From a bacterium UBA3756 (GTDB lineage: Bacteria; Bacteroidota; Bacteroidia; Bacteroidales; Bacteroidaceae): a stretch of 14,007 nt of DNA. The translations under genes were made by a program, and so were the position numbers. Positions 7,204 to 14,007 of the stretch are shown here, one piece after another (the stretch's first letter is position 1; every line of letters begins with the position of its first letter). The notes under the pieces are model-generated. The model was given only the letters and a program-made list of their open reading frames with translations. It was not told where the DNA came from and searched no databases. The stretch is taken from positions 2,457 through 16,463 of the forward strand of contig DFGG01000080.1 in NCBI GenBank assembly GCA_002371695.1. The letters run 5' to 3'.

Positions 7204-7632
7204 CTAAAGCTCTTCTGGGAAATATTTGGAAAGGAAATCTTGTGGCTCTAAGGTCTCTGTTGTGAAGGCGAAATCAAAATCCTTCAGATTACGAGTGACA
7301 ACACATTCGGCGCCAGCTTGTTCAGCAGCATAATACTGCAGGGCATCCTCGAAATCCTTGGACTCGATTTGGTATGCCTTGTCTACGACAGGACTTCCTA
7401 ATGAGACAATACGATAGTAAGGGCGCAGACCTTTCATAACTGCATAGAACTGCTCCAGAGGAATATCCTTTCTGGTTATATAACGCATATTGGCTATGGT
7501 CAAGTCTGAAACCAACAGGTCGATATCTCCGTGGATAGCCAGAAAGAATATTGTCTCTGCCTCTTTCCAACCCTCCGGCCGCTCTTGTATATAGTCAAGA
7601 AAGACATTTGTGTCAATAAACACTTTCATCAT
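7204..7632 (-). CDS. PIN-domain ribonuclease toxin (VapC-like)
   Basis: A 142-residue PIN-domain protein, very probably the toxin of a type II toxin-antitoxin pair that cleaves RNA when the antitoxin is lost. PIN acidic residues are visible: D7 in FIDTNVFLDY, D43 in LLVSDLT, D96 in KDFEDALQ, and the TRNLKDF stretch with N115 and D118. Length is normal for a VapC. The first ATG (7632) overlaps the antitoxin stop codon by 4 nt as ATGA, so translation is probably coupled. Transcription converges with the rhamnosidase gene, which ends only 32 bp away. Expression depends on the promoter in front of the antitoxin. The PIN fold call is strong; the exact RNA target is not predictable. Confidence 0.88.
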   Translation of the reverse strand: MMKVFIDTNVFLDYIQERPEGWKEAETIFFLAIHGDIDLLVSDLTIANMRYITRKDIPLEQFYAVMKGLRPYYRIVSLGSPVVDKAYQIESKDFEDALQYYAAEQAGAECVVTRNLKDFDFAFTTETLEPQDFLSKYFPEEL

Positions 7633-7892
7633 TTTGATGCGTATTTCTCGGTGAGATAATCTTCCTTCACCTGTTTCCAGTCCTTCTCTGTCCTGCTTGC
7701 TGCAAAACTGCCAAGATAAGAATGGGCCAGCTCCTTTGCCTTAGCGCGGCGAAGGGATTCCTGGGCCATTTCGCCTTTTAGTGGCAAAGCCGTCGTAAGG
7801 TAAAGCCAGACAGACTCGATTGTTTTCTCATCACTCTCATCTAAGAGGTTTATACGCCTTACGGCATCATTCTTCATTTCGCGTATAGTCAT
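7629..7892 (-). CDS. Putative antitoxin of the PIN-domain toxin
   Basis: A small charged protein of 87 residues that begins MTIREMKNDA and ends TEKYASK. It sits directly upstream of the PIN toxin and overlaps it by 4 nt. By gene order and size it should bind and neutralise the toxin and repress their shared promoter. I do not recognise a standard VapB, AbrB or Phd sequence. The first 35 residues, ending ESVWLYLTTALP, could form helices for DNA binding or dimerisation; the C-terminal part is rich in K, E and R, suited to toxin binding. The start at 7892 is preferred over an in-frame ATG at 7949 because a promoter (7919-7950) occupies the intervening DNA. Function is inferred from context. Confidence 0.75.
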   Translation of the reverse strand: MTIREMKNDAVRRINLLDESDEKTIESVWLYLTTALPLKGEMAQESLRRAKAKELAHSYLGSFAASRTEKDWKQVKEDYLTEKYASK

Positions 7893-7918
7893 AATTACAA
7901 TTTTGTTGATTGCTGCCG

Positions 7919-7950
7919 CAAAGATAAGTATTTTCCTCCAAACTTCCAAA
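7919..7950 (-). promoter_or_regulatory. Bacteroidetes-type promoter for the toxin-antitoxin operon
   Basis: On the minus strand TTTG (7950-7947) is followed by a 20-bp spacer and TATCTTTG (7926-7919), matching the Bacteroidetes consensus. Transcription would start near 7912, only about 20 nt before the antitoxin ATG at 7892. This promoter decides the antitoxin start. Confidence 0.72.
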
Positions 7951-8213: not shown

Positions 8214-11111
8214 CTATACAAACAGTTCCCCAGTGGCAGCAGATAGCGAAACCTTACACCTATCGCAAATGTCGGTGATAGTAGCGCCATTGGCAGACAA
8301 GCCGTAGAAGTTGTCCTCGCTTATCAGCACGTACTCCCATTCGCGGTTCATCCGCTCCTCGGGCTTCAATTCGTTGATCTTCCTTGTCCATTCTACGGCA
8401 GCCGTCTGTTTTTGACGCACATTCTTGTCGAACACTTTGTCATTGCCCTTGGTCTCTATTAAATAGACTTTCTCCTGTGTCGCCACAATGAAGTCTGGAT
8501 GATAGGTGGCCATCAGTCCGTCTTTCCGCATATAATAGATGACGGCAAAGGGGTGCATATTCTCGCTGATTTTCAGGAAGCGCTCTGTCTCACCATCTTT
8601 GTCAAGGAAATCGATAAACGCCTTTTCCAGGCCTCCGCCATGCGAAGGATAGCCTTGCCGCTCATAGATGGTCTTATGGGTTTCTACGGAATACGCCTCG
8701 CGCATCTTGATTTCTGTTACGGATGAGAAACGGGTATGTATGACCTGCGCATCTGTCATCATGATGCTAATCTGGAGGTTGAAGATGGCCCGTGCCATCT
8801 CCTCGATGATATGCTTCGTGACGACGGCATCCTTTGAAAGCAGTATCTTCCAGTCGCTGCCATTAAAGGGATTGAACGGCTGCCCGAACAGCCGGGTGCG
8901 GATATATCTGTCTACGACGGCAATCATTTGTGCCTCGTTGATCTGTAAGGTGGGAACGGGCATCTCCCTATGCGATGTCACGCGGTCGAACCGGAGCGTA
9001 ATCGTCCGCAGCAGCTTCTGCAGATACTCATTATAACTCGCCGCCGTAAACAGATTGGCAGTCACCTTGTAGCGTCCGAACTGTGTCTTCGAGATGGCTT
9101 CCTGCGAGATGAAGGTCTCGCCATCCTGTGCCAGAAACTGGCGAAGCCTGTCGAGAGGGAATGCCGTAAACGGCTGGAGCGTGCGGATGTCTATCTCCGC
9201 ATCTTCCAGTTCCTCCTCGGCCTCCCTTACGATGATGGGCCACTCAAAGTCGAACTGCTCATAATCCTCTCGCAAGCCCACCTTGATCAGGTCGCCTGTG
9301 GAACCGCCCTCACCAGTCTCACCAGTCTCCTCGACGGCCAAGCCTTGTGCGAACAGGTCTTCATAGAACTGGATGAAGGCCGGATGCTCTATGATGCTCA
9401 GCATGTCGATATAGGTCTTGGGCTGGCTGTGCAGTTGCAACACGCGCTTGCGGTCATCCTCCTTGATGCTCTGATATTCCGGCTCTCGCCACATCAGCCG
9501 GAGTCCGCGCCCTATGATTTGCTCCAGCAGGATGGGTGCCTCTGAGGAGCGCAGCGGCACAATCACACAGATGTTGTTTACGTCGAATCCCTCACGCAAC
9601 ATCAAGACCGACACGATGACCTTGGGCTTCTGATATTTGTCGATGTCGAAGAGTTTCTTCTTGGTCTCCTTCCACTCTTCTTCCGACACCTCGCCCTTGG
9701 CGTTGCTGTCAATCGTCACCACTTCATCCTGTGCCAGCCCTTCGTCCAGCATCAGTTGGTTCACGTATGGCGCTACCGACGTGTCTTCACAGATGACGAG
9801 CATCTTCGGATTTTTCTTTTCATCGACAGCCGTAAACTCCGCTTCCAGTTTCTTCAGTTTGGCCAGTCCAGCACGGAGCATCAGCCGCTGACCGTCGCTC
9901 AGGTCGCAAACCTTCCCCCGCTCGTCGCGCACGGCCTTGTAGTCCAGGTCTTTCAGTTCTGTCAGTTCCTGACGGCGGTCGAGAAGGAGCGTCTTAACCA
10001 GCCCCTTGCGCATAGCCGTTGCCAAGTCGAAGTCAACAATGATATGGGGGAAGAAACATTTCTGTACTTTCTTGCCTGAGCCGCGCTGGTCGTAGGGCGT
10101 GGCCGAGAAGTCTATCTGGAAGAAGCGTTCGCCCTTCTTCTCGGCTATCGCATTCATTCCCTTCTGCCATTCCACCTCCTCTATCTCGCCGTTGCGCTTC
10201 AGTTCGTGGATGTGGTGGGCCTCGTCGTTGATCACCATGATGTCATCGAGTCCTGCCAAGTATTCCAGTTCCGAGCCTCGCAGATAGCGACGGTCGAGCA
10301 TCCCCAAGTCGTTGCCTGCCGCCTTGCCCGGACGGATGGGCAACAGTTCGTTGATGATGCCGGGCACGTCCATCTGCTGTGGTTCTGCCGCTTCGTCTGC
10401 CATCTGATTTTCAAACAGGTGCCAGTTCGTCAGGGCTATCAGCCCGTCGCCCGTCGTCTTGCGTCCGATACCTTCCTCTTTTGTCACCACATTGTTTTGG
10501 ATAAACGAGAACACCTCCTGCCGATAGTGTACCGGAATGAATACTTCTTGATTCAGATAGAAGTCGTTCGTCTCAATATCCCGTTCCTCCTTCTCTCTTT
10601 GCATCCGTCCGCAGAAGGCATCCAGCAGGCGGTCATAGACTATCAGGCCGGGAGCCACGATCAGGAAATTCTTCGTAAATCGTCCCGTCTTTACATCCTC
10701 ATGTCTTGCGTTCAGCATCTGCCACAACAGCAGGGCATGCATCACCCATGTCTTACCCGTGCCCGTAGCCATCTTCACGGCGTACTTGGGCATCTGGTAT
10801 TTCTTCTGCCCCAGGGTGCCAATATCCACGATGGGCATCAGGTCGGGTGTCAGCTGCTCATAATATTCCATCACATTCCTCACGCCCATCACCTCGTGCA
10901 GATACACGATGTTGAGGATAGCCTGTCGCTGACCAGCATGGAAGTTGCGATGGCGCAGCGAGCAGTATTCTTCTGAGAACCAGAACTTCAGCAGCTCCTG
11001 TGTGGTTGGTGTCACCTGATCCATCAGTTCGCCACTCTCGCATGCCGCATTCACCGTCTCGCTCAGCCGCTTGGCCAGTTCCAGCGAGGCATTCATTCCA
11101 TTTGTCTTCAT
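8214..11111 (-). CDS. res: Type III restriction-modification system, Res subunit (helicase-nuclease)
   Basis: A 965-residue restriction subunit that, with Mod, translocates or diffuses from unmodified sites using ATP and cleaves DNA. Superfamily 2 helicase motifs are clear: Walker A ATGTGKT at 115-121, DEAH at 296-299, SAT at 336-338, the LREGFDV motif near 505-511, and QIIGRGLRL at 531-539. A PD-(D/E)xK nuclease sits at the C-terminus, where PD at 872-873 is followed by ETK at 886-888 (D873, E886 and K888 as candidate catalytic residues). Length matches type III Res proteins. The start codon overlaps the end of mod by 4 nt (ATGA), indicating coupled translation. All motifs look intact, so the enzyme should be active. 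A truncated membrane-protein remnant begins immediately after its stop codon. Confidence 0.93.
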
Positions 11112-12997
11112 ACGCCCTCTACCACTTGACTTTCAAAACCAAACACATCCACAGCCTTGATGCACACCCGTCGCTGATCCTTATGCGCCACCCTCAGCCG
11201 CGTCTTATAGACACAATGCAGCGGGTCGTTGTCGTTATCCACATTCTCGCGATAGTCCTGCCACGTAGAGCGGAACGTCACGCCGTCGTAGTCGGGGTCG
11301 ATGCTCCAGTACTCTATCAGCGAGAGCGGGTCGCGCTCCAACACCTGTTGCAGTTTCTCCTTGTCCTTATCGTCGAGCGGGATGTTGTCAGGCGACAGCA
11401 GCACGTAGTTCTCCAGTTCCACGTCTATCTCGTCCTGCTCGCCATTCTGCTTCACTACTAATGGCTTCGCCACTAAGTATTGCAGCGACGAGAAGCGTAC
11501 CGACTTGTCGTCTATCAGTTTCTTGTAGCCCTTCTTGGCCAGCTTGTCTAACAGGTCTGGCGGAATCACCAGCACCTCCACGTTTGAGTCCTGGTACTTC
11601 TGAATGGCTGACGATATATCAAAAGCGAAGTTCCAACCCAGCACGACCACCTTTTCCCAGTCGCCGCCCAGCAGCGAGGCCTTGGCCTCCACAGCTCGGC
11701 GGATGGTGGCGGCAGTCGTCAGGCGGTTTGGCGAGTCTACCATCACCAATGTTCGCGTACCTTTTATATATCCGAAATTACGATCGTTCGTCTGCTCTGG
11801 GGTAAAGGGCAGCGCACCATACAGCCCCAGCACCACTTGGCTCAGGTCTCCCACATGCTTATAGCGCTTGTTGTTGCGGAAAGCCTCCTTCTGATAGTCG
11901 CCAATACTCTGATAGAGGAAAGGCTTCACCTCTTGGTCGATGAATCGCTTGCGCATCACTAACGAGGCTGGCTTGCCGATGTCACAGGTGATCCAGCGTC
12001 TGCCCAATCGCTCGGCTACTGCTGCCGTTGTGCCGCTGCCGCCGAAGAAGTCGCAGACGAGGTCGCCTTCGTTGGAAGAAGCTTTGATGATGCGCTCAAG
12101 AAGGGCTTCGGGCTTCTGAGTAGCGTAGCCAACACGTTCTGAAGACATTGGAGGGATTGCTGGAATATCCCACCAATCTTCAGGAATTTTCCCTAATGCA
12201 TTTGGCATATATACTTTCCCATTTATAACAACTCCCTTTCCTGATGTTTGATAACCACCCGTTCCCTCATATGGTACACGAATAGGATCTGCATTGAAAG
12301 TCCAATTGTTACCTTTAGCATACCAATATATAGTATCATGTTTTTGAGGATAATTTCCTTCAGAACGTCCACCTTGTCTATAACACCATATAATCTCATT
12401 AACAAGGTGATCTTTCCCCATAATATCATCCAAAAGAATCTTTACGTACGCATTGGCATGATAATCCACATGAACAAATAGCCCCCCCGTGTTACATAAA
12501 AATTCTTTAATTAGGACTAATCTGGAATATAGCATTTTCAAATAGCTAATTGTGCCATGTTCCCATGTATCTGCATAAGCAAATTGTTCCAATACGGTTG
12601 GTTTCTGTTCAATATTAACCCCAGGCAAAGATATCTTCGTCCGATAATCAGCCTTCGAATCAAACGGTGGGTCAATATATATCAAATCGACTTTCCCGCG
12701 AAGCGAGGGCAACCCCGTCTGGGCATCGCCAGCCAGCAGGGCCTGCATCGCTAAGAGATTATCCCCATAGATGAGGCGGTTCATCCACTCCCCATTGCCT
12801 CCCGCCATATTGAAGGCATTGGGAATCTGAGGCGAACTGCCTTTGAACAGTCCGCTCACATCCTTACTCGGCAGCACCAGCTCATTGGTCTGTAGACCAA
12901 TCTGCGTGCCACTACTCAGCCGCTCCAATATCTGGGCAGCCTCACGCCTGCCCTCGCTCACAATGCGGGGCAGCTCTTCAATCAATGATTTAGCCAT
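11108..12997 (-). CDS. mod: Type III restriction-modification system, Mod subunit (DNA methyltransferase)
   Basis: A 629-residue site-specific DNA methyltransferase that methylates the recognition site (N6-adenine expected) and supplies specificity to Res. Motif IV is DPPF at 109-112 and the AdoMet-binding motif I is FFGGSGTT at 317-324. Motif IV before motif I is the beta-class order used by type III Mod proteins. [10 protein letters not shown] (171-180) and YATQKP (291-296) are further family landmarks. The target-recognition region should lie between motifs IV and I, and that DNA (about 12140-12690) is markedly AT-rich: sampled 60-bp blocks give 28-35% GC, against 65% at 12001-12060. Residues 395-629 form a long C-terminal part I cannot assign. 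The ATG at 12997 is the first in frame and lies 3 bp from a 20-bp palindrome. It is the first gene of the mod-res operon. A promoter next to the ATG is not obvious. Confidence 0.92.
12482..12488 (-). repeat. G7 homopolymer tract inside mod
   Basis: Seven consecutive C on the plus strand read as G7 in mod, encoding the two glycines of the conserved TGGLFV stretch (residues 170-175). A slipped base would truncate Mod and, through translational coupling, reduce Res. Type III mod genes elsewhere are often phase-variable through simple repeats, but seven bases is short, so slippage here would be slow. Confidence 0.5.
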
Positions 12998-13000
12998 ATA

Positions 13001-13020
13001 GCATTATAGTTTTATAATGC
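13001..13020. repeat. 20-bp palindrome next to the mod start codon
   Basis: A perfect inverted repeat with arms GCATTATA and TATAATGC and a 4-base centre. It ends 3 bp before the mod ATG (12997). In RNA it would form an 8-bp AT-rich hairpin that could mask the start; in DNA it could be an operator. There is no U-run, so it is not an intrinsic terminator. No controller-protein gene is seen beside it. Confidence 0.7.
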
Positions 13021-13042
13021 GCCGAGCCACCAAACAAAACGA

Positions 13043-13188
13043 TTCCTGCAAGGTACCGATTAAGCGAGAGAAGAACGATGCTTGCATCAGTTCTTCCAAG
13101 CGTGAGGTAACTCGCCCGTAGGGCAAGCACCCGTATGGACACAAAACGTGGACGAATCCCCGTTTGATGTTCCAGGTACTTGCAGGAA
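13043..13188. repeat. Long-range inverted repeat competing with the large hairpin
   Basis: TTCCTGCAA (13043-13051) pairs with TTGCAGGAA (13180-13188), and GTACC (13053-13057) with GGTAC (13175-13179), giving 14 bp with one bulged base. The same middle strand also pairs 9 bp with 13267-13275, so the two arrangements exclude each other. Two small hairpins lie inside the loop. Confidence 0.6.
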
Positions 13189-13286
13189 ACCTATAACTGA
13201 GAAACAGGAAAACGCCCACTATACGAAATAGGCGTCACCATTATTATCTCAGTTATGTTCTTTCTACCTGCAAGTTTCGGAACATC
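13166..13286. repeat. Large interrupted hairpin of about 120 bp
   Basis: Four nested helices share one axis: GATGTTCC 13166-13173 with GGAACATC 13279-13286 (8 bp), ACTTGCAGG 13178-13186 with CCTGCAAGT 13267-13275 (9 bp), ATAACTGAGA 13193-13202 with TCTCAGTTAT 13247-13256 (10 bp), and ACGCC 13212-13216 with GGCGT 13231-13235 (5 bp). They are separated by small asymmetric internal loops. All stems are perfect. Four nested perfect helices are most unlikely by chance. Confidence 0.8.
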
Positions 13287-13371
13287 TTGAATAATAGCCA
13301 ACGCTAAAGTTATTTACCCACGAAAGTCGCGCCAGCACCTCCACCGAGGCTCATCGCCAGCGTTCAAGGGG

Positions 13372-13379
13372 CAAAGGTA
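13372..13379 (-). promoter_or_regulatory. Possible promoter (-7 box) for the structured RNA and mod-res
   Basis: TACCTTTG on the minus strand matches the Bacteroidetes -7 consensus. The matching -33 TTTG is not present at 19-20 bp, where only CATT or TCAT is found, so the promoter is weaker evidence than the others. Its position just before the structured region, back to back with the hicB promoter, supports it. Confidence 0.45.
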
Positions 13380-13429
13380 GCAATTTTATTTGTATTATAA
13401 TGATAGAATCAGAAAAAAATAGCGAAAAA

Positions 13430-13465: not shown

Positions 13466-13594
13466 ATGAATACGATGACTTATAAAGGCTATCTGGGATC
13501 GGTAGCTTTCAGCGAGAAGGACAATGTGTTTTTTGGAAAGATTGAGGGCATCAACGGAATGGTTGTTGACTCTGGGGCCTGGCCCCAAAACTAA
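13466..13594 (+). pseudogene. HicB-family antitoxin, N-terminal fragment (interrupted)
   Basis: Forty-two residues beginning MNTMTYKGYLGSVAFSEKDN, followed by VFFGKIEGING. This is the first strand-turn-strand of the partial RNase H-like fold typical of HicB antitoxins, which are normally about 105-140 residues. After GMVVDS the frame enters a GC-rich hairpin element (13570-13615) and stops at once, losing the rest of the fold and the DNA-binding tail. No HicA toxin gene is seen beside it. The promoter is intact, so the fragment may still be transcribed. Family call from the N-terminal pattern is fairly strong; loss of function is inferred from the truncation. Confidence 0.72.
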
Positions 13595-13615
13595 GCGCTG
13601 GGGCCAGGCCCCGAG
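13570..13615. mobile_element. 46-bp GC-rich palindromic element inserted in the hicB remnant
   Basis: A perfect 14-bp inverted repeat, GGGGCCTGGCCCCA (13574-13587) with TGGGGCCAGGCCCC (13599-13612), with an 11-base loop and a further CTC/GAG pair outside one bulged base. Each arm is itself nearly palindromic. It contrasts sharply with its AT-rich surroundings and breaks the hicB frame. GTTG flanks both sides (13565-13568, 13615-13618), a possible short duplication. It resembles a REP- or MITE-like unit; copies elsewhere cannot be seen here. Confidence 0.55.
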
Positions 13616-13674: not shown

Positions 13675-13706
13675 TTTGGAAGTTTCAACAGAAACGACTA
13701 TCTTTG
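13675..13706 (+). promoter_or_regulatory. Bacteroidetes-type promoter for the nucleotidyltransferase gene
   Basis: TTTG at 13675-13678, a 20-bp spacer and TATCTTTG at 13699-13706 fit the consensus closely. The start of transcription near 13713 leaves about 12 nt before the ATG at 13725. Confidence 0.72.
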
Positions 13707-13724
13707 CAACCAAAAGACAGAGCA

Positions 13725-14007
13725 ATGAATCAGGAAGTGTCACGCACCATAAGGGAATATTTCAAAACCAAACCAGTGGAAAAGGCTTGGGTTTTTGGTT
13801 CGTTCTCCCGTGGGGAAGAGCGGGCAGACAGCGATGTTGACATTATGATTACGCTTATTCCCGGCACTCGTATGGGACTGACATTCTTTGCGATGAACAT
13901 AGAACTGGAGAAACTTCTCAATCGGCCCGTAGACCTTGTCATTGAGGGGGACTTGTTGCCATTCGCTGAAAAGACTGCCAACCGTGATAAAGTATTAGTC
14001 TATGCGC
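13725..14007 (+). CDS. MNT-type nucleotidyltransferase, MntA-like antitoxin (runs off right edge)
   Basis: Ninety-four residues of a minimal nucleotidyltransferase. The signature GSFSRGE (25-31) followed by SDVDIMI (36-42) supplies the metal-binding aspartates D37 and D39; D70 in NRPVDLV is the likely third. Proteins of this kind pair with HEPN toxins: MntA transfers AMP to HepT and silences it. The family is about 95-110 residues, so nearly all of the gene is present and a hepT partner would be expected just beyond the window. It has its own promoter. The fold assignment is strong; the antitoxin role depends on the unseen neighbour. Confidence 0.85.
   Translation, partial: MNQEVSRTIREYFKTKPVEKAWVFGSFSRGEERADSDVDIMITLIPGTRMGLTFFAMNIELEKLLNRPVDLVIEGDLLPFAEKTANRDKVLVYA

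Follow-up and report, generated by a model that had tools for sequence, protein, structure and literature searches.

An apparently undescribed family of conserved structured leader RNAs before restriction and cell-surface genes in Bacteroidota

The type III restriction operon and its upstream region

The window, which is the whole stretch of 14,007 nucleotides analysed here, carries on its minus strand a type III restriction-modification operon consisting of mod (11108..12997), encoding a DNA methyltransferase of 629 aa (Pfam N6_N4_Mtase, 8e-46; PADLOC MTase_III, 3.5e-90), and res (8214..11111), encoding a restriction subunit of 965 aa (Pfam ResIII, 2.1e-13; PADLOC REase_III). The minus strand of the region upstream of mod (13000-13400) folds at -147.9 kcal/mol, compared with -110.7 +/- 5.4 kcal/mol for shuffled sequences (z -6.9; 0 of 100 shuffles as stable), and the plus strand of the same region gives a folding z of -5.2. 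An earlier note on this DNA had described the region as a gene-free, structured RNA of no known class, with many inverted repeats, a four-helix hairpin at 13166-13286 and a promoter box pointing to mod. The hairpin was recovered, with its stems P2-P5 assigned to the minus strand, and the TACCTTTG box is present at 13372-13379 of the minus strand, directed towards mod. No credible gene was recognised: the longest of the ORFs listed within the region (13004-13219, 71 aa) crosses a repeat that most homologous leaders are without. A covariance-model scan of the window against Rfam 15 returned no match at the RNA. The hairpin and leader fold are thus real, while the inverted repeats cannot all be assigned to the leader, since about 70 bp (13053-13127) are a REP-like repeat foreign to it that is also found in other genomes of the genus. 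Based on covariation, the promoter box, the absence of an Rfam match and the linkage to mod, the region is a structured leader of the mod-res operon and of no recognised class.

Anatomy of the leader

All elements of the leader lie on the minus strand and are given here from the promoter side towards mod. The TACCTTTG box (13372..13379) follows TAnnTTTG, the consensus of the Bacteroidota -7 promoter box, and 40 of 42 mod-type leaders carry such a box no more than 160 nt before the core, against 4.9 expected from dinucleotide shuffles. It is followed by a 5' domain (13317..13363), a hairpin within a longer stem, with the tetraloop GGTG here and usually AGYG in relatives; of the 43 mod-type leaders, 32 have a stem of at least 3 pairs around AGYG, the window falling outside these 32, and this is weak evidence because shuffles do equally well in 20% on average. 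The conserved RNA core, captured by the covariance models R1 and R2, spans 13140..13305 and scores 178.3 bits (E 1.1e-38) with R1, whose training set includes the window itself. The core opens with the segment AGCGTTGGCTATTATTC (13289..13305), which supplies one strand of the long-range stem P1 as well as one strand of a pseudoknot, in which ATTATTC at the 5' end pairs with the loop AATAATGG (13238..13245). The nested stems are P2 (13279-13286/13166-13173), P3 (13267-13275/13178-13186; 5' strand ACTTGCAGG, 3' strand CCTGCAAGT), P4 (13247-13256/13193-13202; 5' strand ATAACTGAGA) and P5 (13228-13235/13212-13220), and the core closes with P6, a terminator-like hairpin with a T-run (13140..13165), the T-run being conserved in mod-type leaders.

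Between the core and mod, a second copy of the P3 5' strand, CTTGCAGG (13045..13052), is conserved in mod-type leaders, and the P3 3' strand (13178-13186) is able to pair alternatively with it. The 3' strand of P1, GGCTCGGCGC (13019..13028), is complementary to the 5' end of the RNA and overlaps by 2 nt the hairpin P7, GCATTATAAAACTATAATGC (13001..13020), which stands directly before the mod start codon. The REP-like repeat (13053..13127) is probably an insertion and lies outside the conserved RNA; it is absent from most other mod leaders, its 50-nt unit occurs up to several times per relative, and it is arranged in tandem at 73-80 bp in two genomes (G033 and G056).

Linkage of the RNA to mod

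For leader linkage, 80 Mod homologues drawn from genome contigs served as the locus set, four of these loci being without the mod start. The core was detected upstream of mod by blastn in 42 of the 80 loci, and by R1 on the correct strand before mod in 55 of the 80 and in the window, one of them clipped by a contig end. The more general model R2, applied to 22 of the remaining or doubtful loci, added 3 labelled Parabacteroides, in which 0.7-1.2 kb separate the upstream RNA from mod. With E values allowed up to 0.01, it found nothing in 17 mod loci labelled as other phyla and nothing in L046, where only 92 nt precede mod. The copies at L090:589-851 and 2569-2834, L096:2567-2825 and L084:1146-1404 are distant from mod and do not adjoin it, the two-copy locus L090 also having one at 3.1 kb.

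Among 43 Mods including that of the window, the target-recognition part of the protein (residues ~160-300) is hypervariable, the remainder being nearly constant, and the recognition domain seems to be swapped among otherwise near-identical Mods (42 loci within L040-L109 and the window). The same recognition domain occurs with different leader stems, and vice versa. The idea that the P4 stem is a copy of the Mod recognition site was rejected, as P4 and the recognition-domain cluster do not co-vary, in a comparison in which one stem strand was misread for L049, L065 and L085 and missed for L047.

Covariation supports a conserved RNA fold

Two alignments carry the evidence for the fold, together with a swap test. 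In A3, a plain MAFFT alignment of 40 cores with the structure drawn by eye aided by RNAalifold, 93.8% of the cells in a 52-pair structure form standard pairs, compared with 34-44% when partners are slid, and 20 pairs show double changes, none of 500 shuffles reaching as high on any measure. In A9 (98 distinct members), which leans towards the model because the alignment was fitted to it, 92.2% of the cells are paired (slid controls 34-42%), all 43 nested pairs show double changes (38.7 on average in shuffles, 1 of 500 as high) and the covariation score is 0.79 versus 0.24 in shuffles. The compensatory changes thus exceed the column-composition and the register controls, with the proviso that the shuffle controls ignore kinship and many of the relatives are close kin. 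The earlier note had named a lack of covariation across homologues among the outcomes that would speak against its proposal, and strong covariation is present.

Differential support was observed for the individual stems. Every cell of P3 is paired in A3 and two of its pairs changed on both sides. P4 is the most variable stem, its sequence being almost wholly different between relatives with complementarity kept, and in A9 it has 96.5% of cells paired and compensatory changes in 7 of 7 pairs. For the pseudoknot, 90% of cells are paired in A3 and one pair is doubly changed in two sequences, the outermost pair (C18 in A3) being unpaired in 31 of 40. The weakest helix of A9 is the short one between P3 and P4, with 69.7% paired. 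P6 is among the less well supported stems of the core, with 82.5% of cells paired in A3, no double change and one pair out of four left open in 21 of the 40 cores, and with 87.9% of cells paired in A9. P1 reaches 98.4% of cells paired in the alignment A2, and no double changes occur within the mod group, so it is without covariation support there. The alignments show a conserved fold of the core, comprising P2-P5 and the pseudoknot.

Promoter, terminal hairpin and alternative pairings

The arrangement seen before mod recurs across the family. Within 160 nt upstream of the core, TAnnTTTG is found in 187 of 220 copies (~30 expected), at a median distance to the core of 68-89 nt in four sets; of the 8 nt that close the core, at least 5 are T in 192 of 221 copies (background 4-10%), the mod-type leaders contributing 40 of 43 against a background of 4%. 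In 163 of 173 copies a same-strand ORF begins no more than 300 nt behind the core, and a divergent ORF lies on the opposite side in 40 of 176. Three copies were counted double in these promoter, T-run and ORF tallies (L164/L312, L165/L233, L234/L348), and some gene starts may be wrong, since the downstream gene was chosen mechanically as the first ATG with a long enough ORF. At the level of sequence, the RNA is therefore placed as a cis leader, with a promoter box upstream and a same-strand gene directly downstream. Several surface-type copies (L236, L240, L243, L248, L250 and similar ones) have GCCTATG before the core. A consensus terminator scan of the window did not call the P6 hairpin and called P5 instead, such calls being no commoner than chance; the P6 of the window is a weak terminator with the tail GTTTTGTG.

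Pairings were also assessed by a swap test on 99 members, in which a segment was paired with the partner from a less similar member. The own partner was favoured most for the P3 3' strand paired with the 45 nt that follow the core (own -13.9 versus swapped -9.7 kcal/mol). Smaller gaps were observed for the P5 3' strand and the terminal GUCCACG (-12.3 versus -10.2), for the RNA's 5' end and the 90 nt following the core (-12.6 versus -10.7) and for the pseudoknot (-8.3 versus -6.5), and two controls showed no preference for the own partner. This support is broad and not uniform, as 23-42 of the 99 members reach the best tenth of swaps. In the non-surface subset, P1, formed by the first 11 nt with a stretch near the start codon, gave -9.9 versus -7.6 when shuffled, and in 23 of 59 members no more than 5% of shuffles were equally strong; in the surface-type subset the values were -6.1 versus -6.0, with 4 of 40 members at that level. 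The surface subset was sorted by our reading of the first gene, and the P1 shuffles preserve single-base composition only. As P1 was not seen in surface-type copies, the two groups may work differently. In the window P1 is not the best duplex, because the repeat displaces it beyond the stretch that was searched. An arrangement of P1 and the pseudoknot as mutually exclusive states was dropped because both use neighbouring nucleotides; only P3 and the downstream repeat compete for one strand.

Distribution of the RNA family

R1 detected the RNA in 157 of 398 genomes of the genus, and R2 in 135 of 393 Bacteroidales genomes, covering 85 of 206 genera, and in 29 of 296 genomes drawn from the whole phylum Bacteroidota. 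R2 found none in 150 genomes of the phylum of L095 (labelled Sulfurimonas), a group with no known positive that was searched under stricter filters. In 12 genomes picked for having matches, deeper scoring counted 3, 5, 6, 7, 10, 10, 11, 11, 13, 14, 19 and 22 copies; a single-contig genome of the genus contains 10, and five genomes with the mod type contain 2-11 each. Of six genomes behind Mod homologues, the three labelled Bacteroidota have 2-7 copies, and no copies were found in the three from other phyla. The Rfam 15 covariance scan at E up to 1 gave no family at the RNA in the window and 45 other loci; two RNA-family matches inside the window fall outside the RNA and under their gathering scores. 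The leader of the window is therefore one copy of a large, multicopy and Bacteroidota-wide family of structured RNAs, apparently undescribed. No description of the RNA was found in open-licence papers; earlier RNA screens might list such a motif unnamed.

Carriage of the RNA by phages was considered and not upheld. BLAST of the window leader returned nothing in phages or plasmids, and BLAST of two other leaders nothing in plasmids. Two 18-base patterns matched 4 viral contigs, on which R2 gave a single weak full-length match (36.9 bits), which does not coincide with the pattern site, two partial matches that are also weak (20-21 bits) and none on the fourth. The viral contigs L362:2549-2576 and L364:5967 onwards resemble the first part of the RNA.

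Genes behind the RNA

Behind the RNA stand restriction genes of types I, II, IIG and III, further defence genes, and genes for enzymes that modify the envelope and for proteins that are secreted or BspA-like. The earlier remark that such a leader is unusual for type III systems thus stands in so far as it concerns an unrecognised structured leader of a restriction operon and is too narrow otherwise, because the same family precedes these other genes too. The leader might, as the earlier note proposed, time restriction after transfer or sense infection. Among 80 loci of the genus (L150-L229), a first gene was found in 79: EcoRI-family methylase (14), MmeI-like type IIG (12), ResIII-type cluster (11), acyltransferase_3 (7), type III mod (3), C5 methylase (3, L150 assigned by hand), sulfatase (2), SspB/DUF4007, PLD-SNF2 helicase, TupA-like ATP-grasp and MBOAT (1 each), and secreted, LRR, lipoprotein or unknown proteins (23). 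These genes were clustered by blastp and one or a few members per cluster compared with Pfam (one for the ResIII-type cluster), and their make-up is not that of a random sample, since the loci were hand-picked from the listed matches scoring below the mod type. For 90 more genes, from other genera and whole genomes, the Pfam families, which overlap within proteins, were LRR_5 (10), N6_Mtase (7), Por_Secre_tail (7), EcoRI_methylase (4), Eco57I (4), TonB plug (4), N6_N4_Mtase (3), MmeI_Mtase (3), HsdM_N (2) and HSDR_N_2 (2); PADLOC was run as well. Two copies are shared between the two sets of genes, and a third is present twice within the second set (L164/L312, L165/L233, L234/L348).

In a less biased set of 37 loci, comprising all 10 copies in G391 together with 10 of the 11 in G386 and 17 of the 19 in G671, a restriction methylase or PLD-helicase gene comes first in 11 by our reading; the ResIII helicase of L341 is uncounted, the gene start of L344 is 456 nt away, and L348-L350, which belong to another genome, were left out. 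In the reverse survey, based on the best-scoring methylase loci, one per genome, a strong copy stands at 8 of 30 EcoRI-type loci with 4 more weak, and at 0 of 30 C5 loci with 2 weak, indicating that the RNA is a common and not an obligatory companion. L150 and L154 have similar upstream genes (flavodoxin-like, then a short gene) and different genes behind the RNA, as if cargo had been exchanged beside a resident leader. L151 and L155 have one neighbour gene in common, oppositely oriented.

Proposed mode of action and alternatives

The control of restriction-modification expression is a long-standing question that is often answered by small C-protein regulators, and one RNA fold common to unrelated restriction systems and surface genes would represent a general control layer. 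That the family is conserved and placed in cis is very probable, and the RNA standing before defence and cell-surface genes probably switches them on and off. The best reading is a cis-acting attenuator, a leader similar to an orphan riboswitch, because this joins the conserved fold, the promoter box, the hairpin with its T-run and the same-strand gene; we give it about even chances. The leader RNA would fold during transcription, and a factor or small ligand would set whether polymerase halts at the terminal hairpin or continues into the gene. In restriction-type copies, the read-through RNA could refold, with the P3 3' strand shifting to the repeat that follows the T-run and the RNA's 5' end pairing (P1) beside the start-codon hairpin P7, so that translation may be tuned too. 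With orphan riboswitches and attenuators the RNA has in common the cis position, the conserved pseudoknotted fold, the terminal hairpin with T-run and the alternative pairings; unlike them it stands before genes for restriction and for the cell surface, not before genes of metabolism, and no Rfam class matches it. No ligand or protein partner of the RNA was identified. As restriction and surface genes bear the same leader, a signal common to both is likely. A further step, on the unlikely side in our estimate, would make the RNA a phylum-wide switch: a single ancient leader fold would respond to one signal shared by all these genes, perhaps linked to infection or envelope stress, and would tie immune and surface genes into one regulon controlled through transcription elongation. 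The D12-methyl RNA motif, apparently an Rfam family linked to a DNA methyltransferase, likewise lies beside DNA methylase genes, and the Rfam scans at E up to 1 gave no match to it at the RNA.

Several alternatives bear on the same observations. The complex, conserved fold whose end adjoins the start-codon hairpin could be a binding site through which the restriction-modification product itself or a global RNA-binding protein controls translation, and a global RNA binder, RbpB, is described for Bacteroides thetaiotaomicron (PMC11697453); cognate autoregulation is at odds with one RNA before unrelated proteins, P4 does not track the Mod recognition domain, and we think this unlikely. It is rather more doubtful that the RNA is an independent, trans-acting small RNA terminated at P6, its position before genes being incidental: the promoter box of its own, the terminator-like end and the 3-22 copies in the 12 chosen genomes would suit such a role, whereas it is at odds with the finding that 163 of 173 copies have a gene on their own strand at most 300 nt away, and with the complementarity extending past the T-run towards the gene. 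The FopS/GibS sRNAs of Bacteroides are likewise a multicopy Bacteroidota family with terminator hairpins, and according to PMC11697453 FopS RNAs are ~65-70 nt long, with a single-stranded 5' end and a terminator, and act in trans on susC mRNAs; the core here differs from that description in being ~165 nt, highly folded (P2-P5 and the pseudoknot) and placed in cis.

The put RNA of HK022 and the EAR element are processive antitermination RNAs, and in general description they resemble the present RNA as compact folded RNAs opening long operons. By analogy, a compact pseudoknotted RNA ahead of long genes or operons, such as those of type IIG and type III, might make polymerase resistant to downstream terminators; such a role appears improbable to us, as the RNA, unlike put and EAR, itself closes with a conserved terminator-like end, and copies precede short genes too. 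Lastly, the multicopy state and the adjoining repeat at 13053-13127 would fit a mobile DNA element or the end of a repeat, with the folding as a property of the DNA, an explanation that is strongly disfavoured given the single orientation, the fixed place between promoter box and gene and the stem-by-stem covariation, which includes many G-U pairs.

Other features of the window

Beyond the leader and the operon, an inverted repeat with perfectly matching 14-bp arms, GGGGCCTGGCCCCA / TGGGGCCAGGCCCC, and 11 nt between them was observed at 13574-13612, and an MNT-like nucleotidyltransferase gene (13704-14006; PADLOC candidate PDC-S09) is clipped by the end of the window. At 7204-7949 of the minus strand, a gene for a PIN-domain protein overlaps that of a 106-aa partner without a Pfam family, and the two look like a toxin-antitoxin pair.
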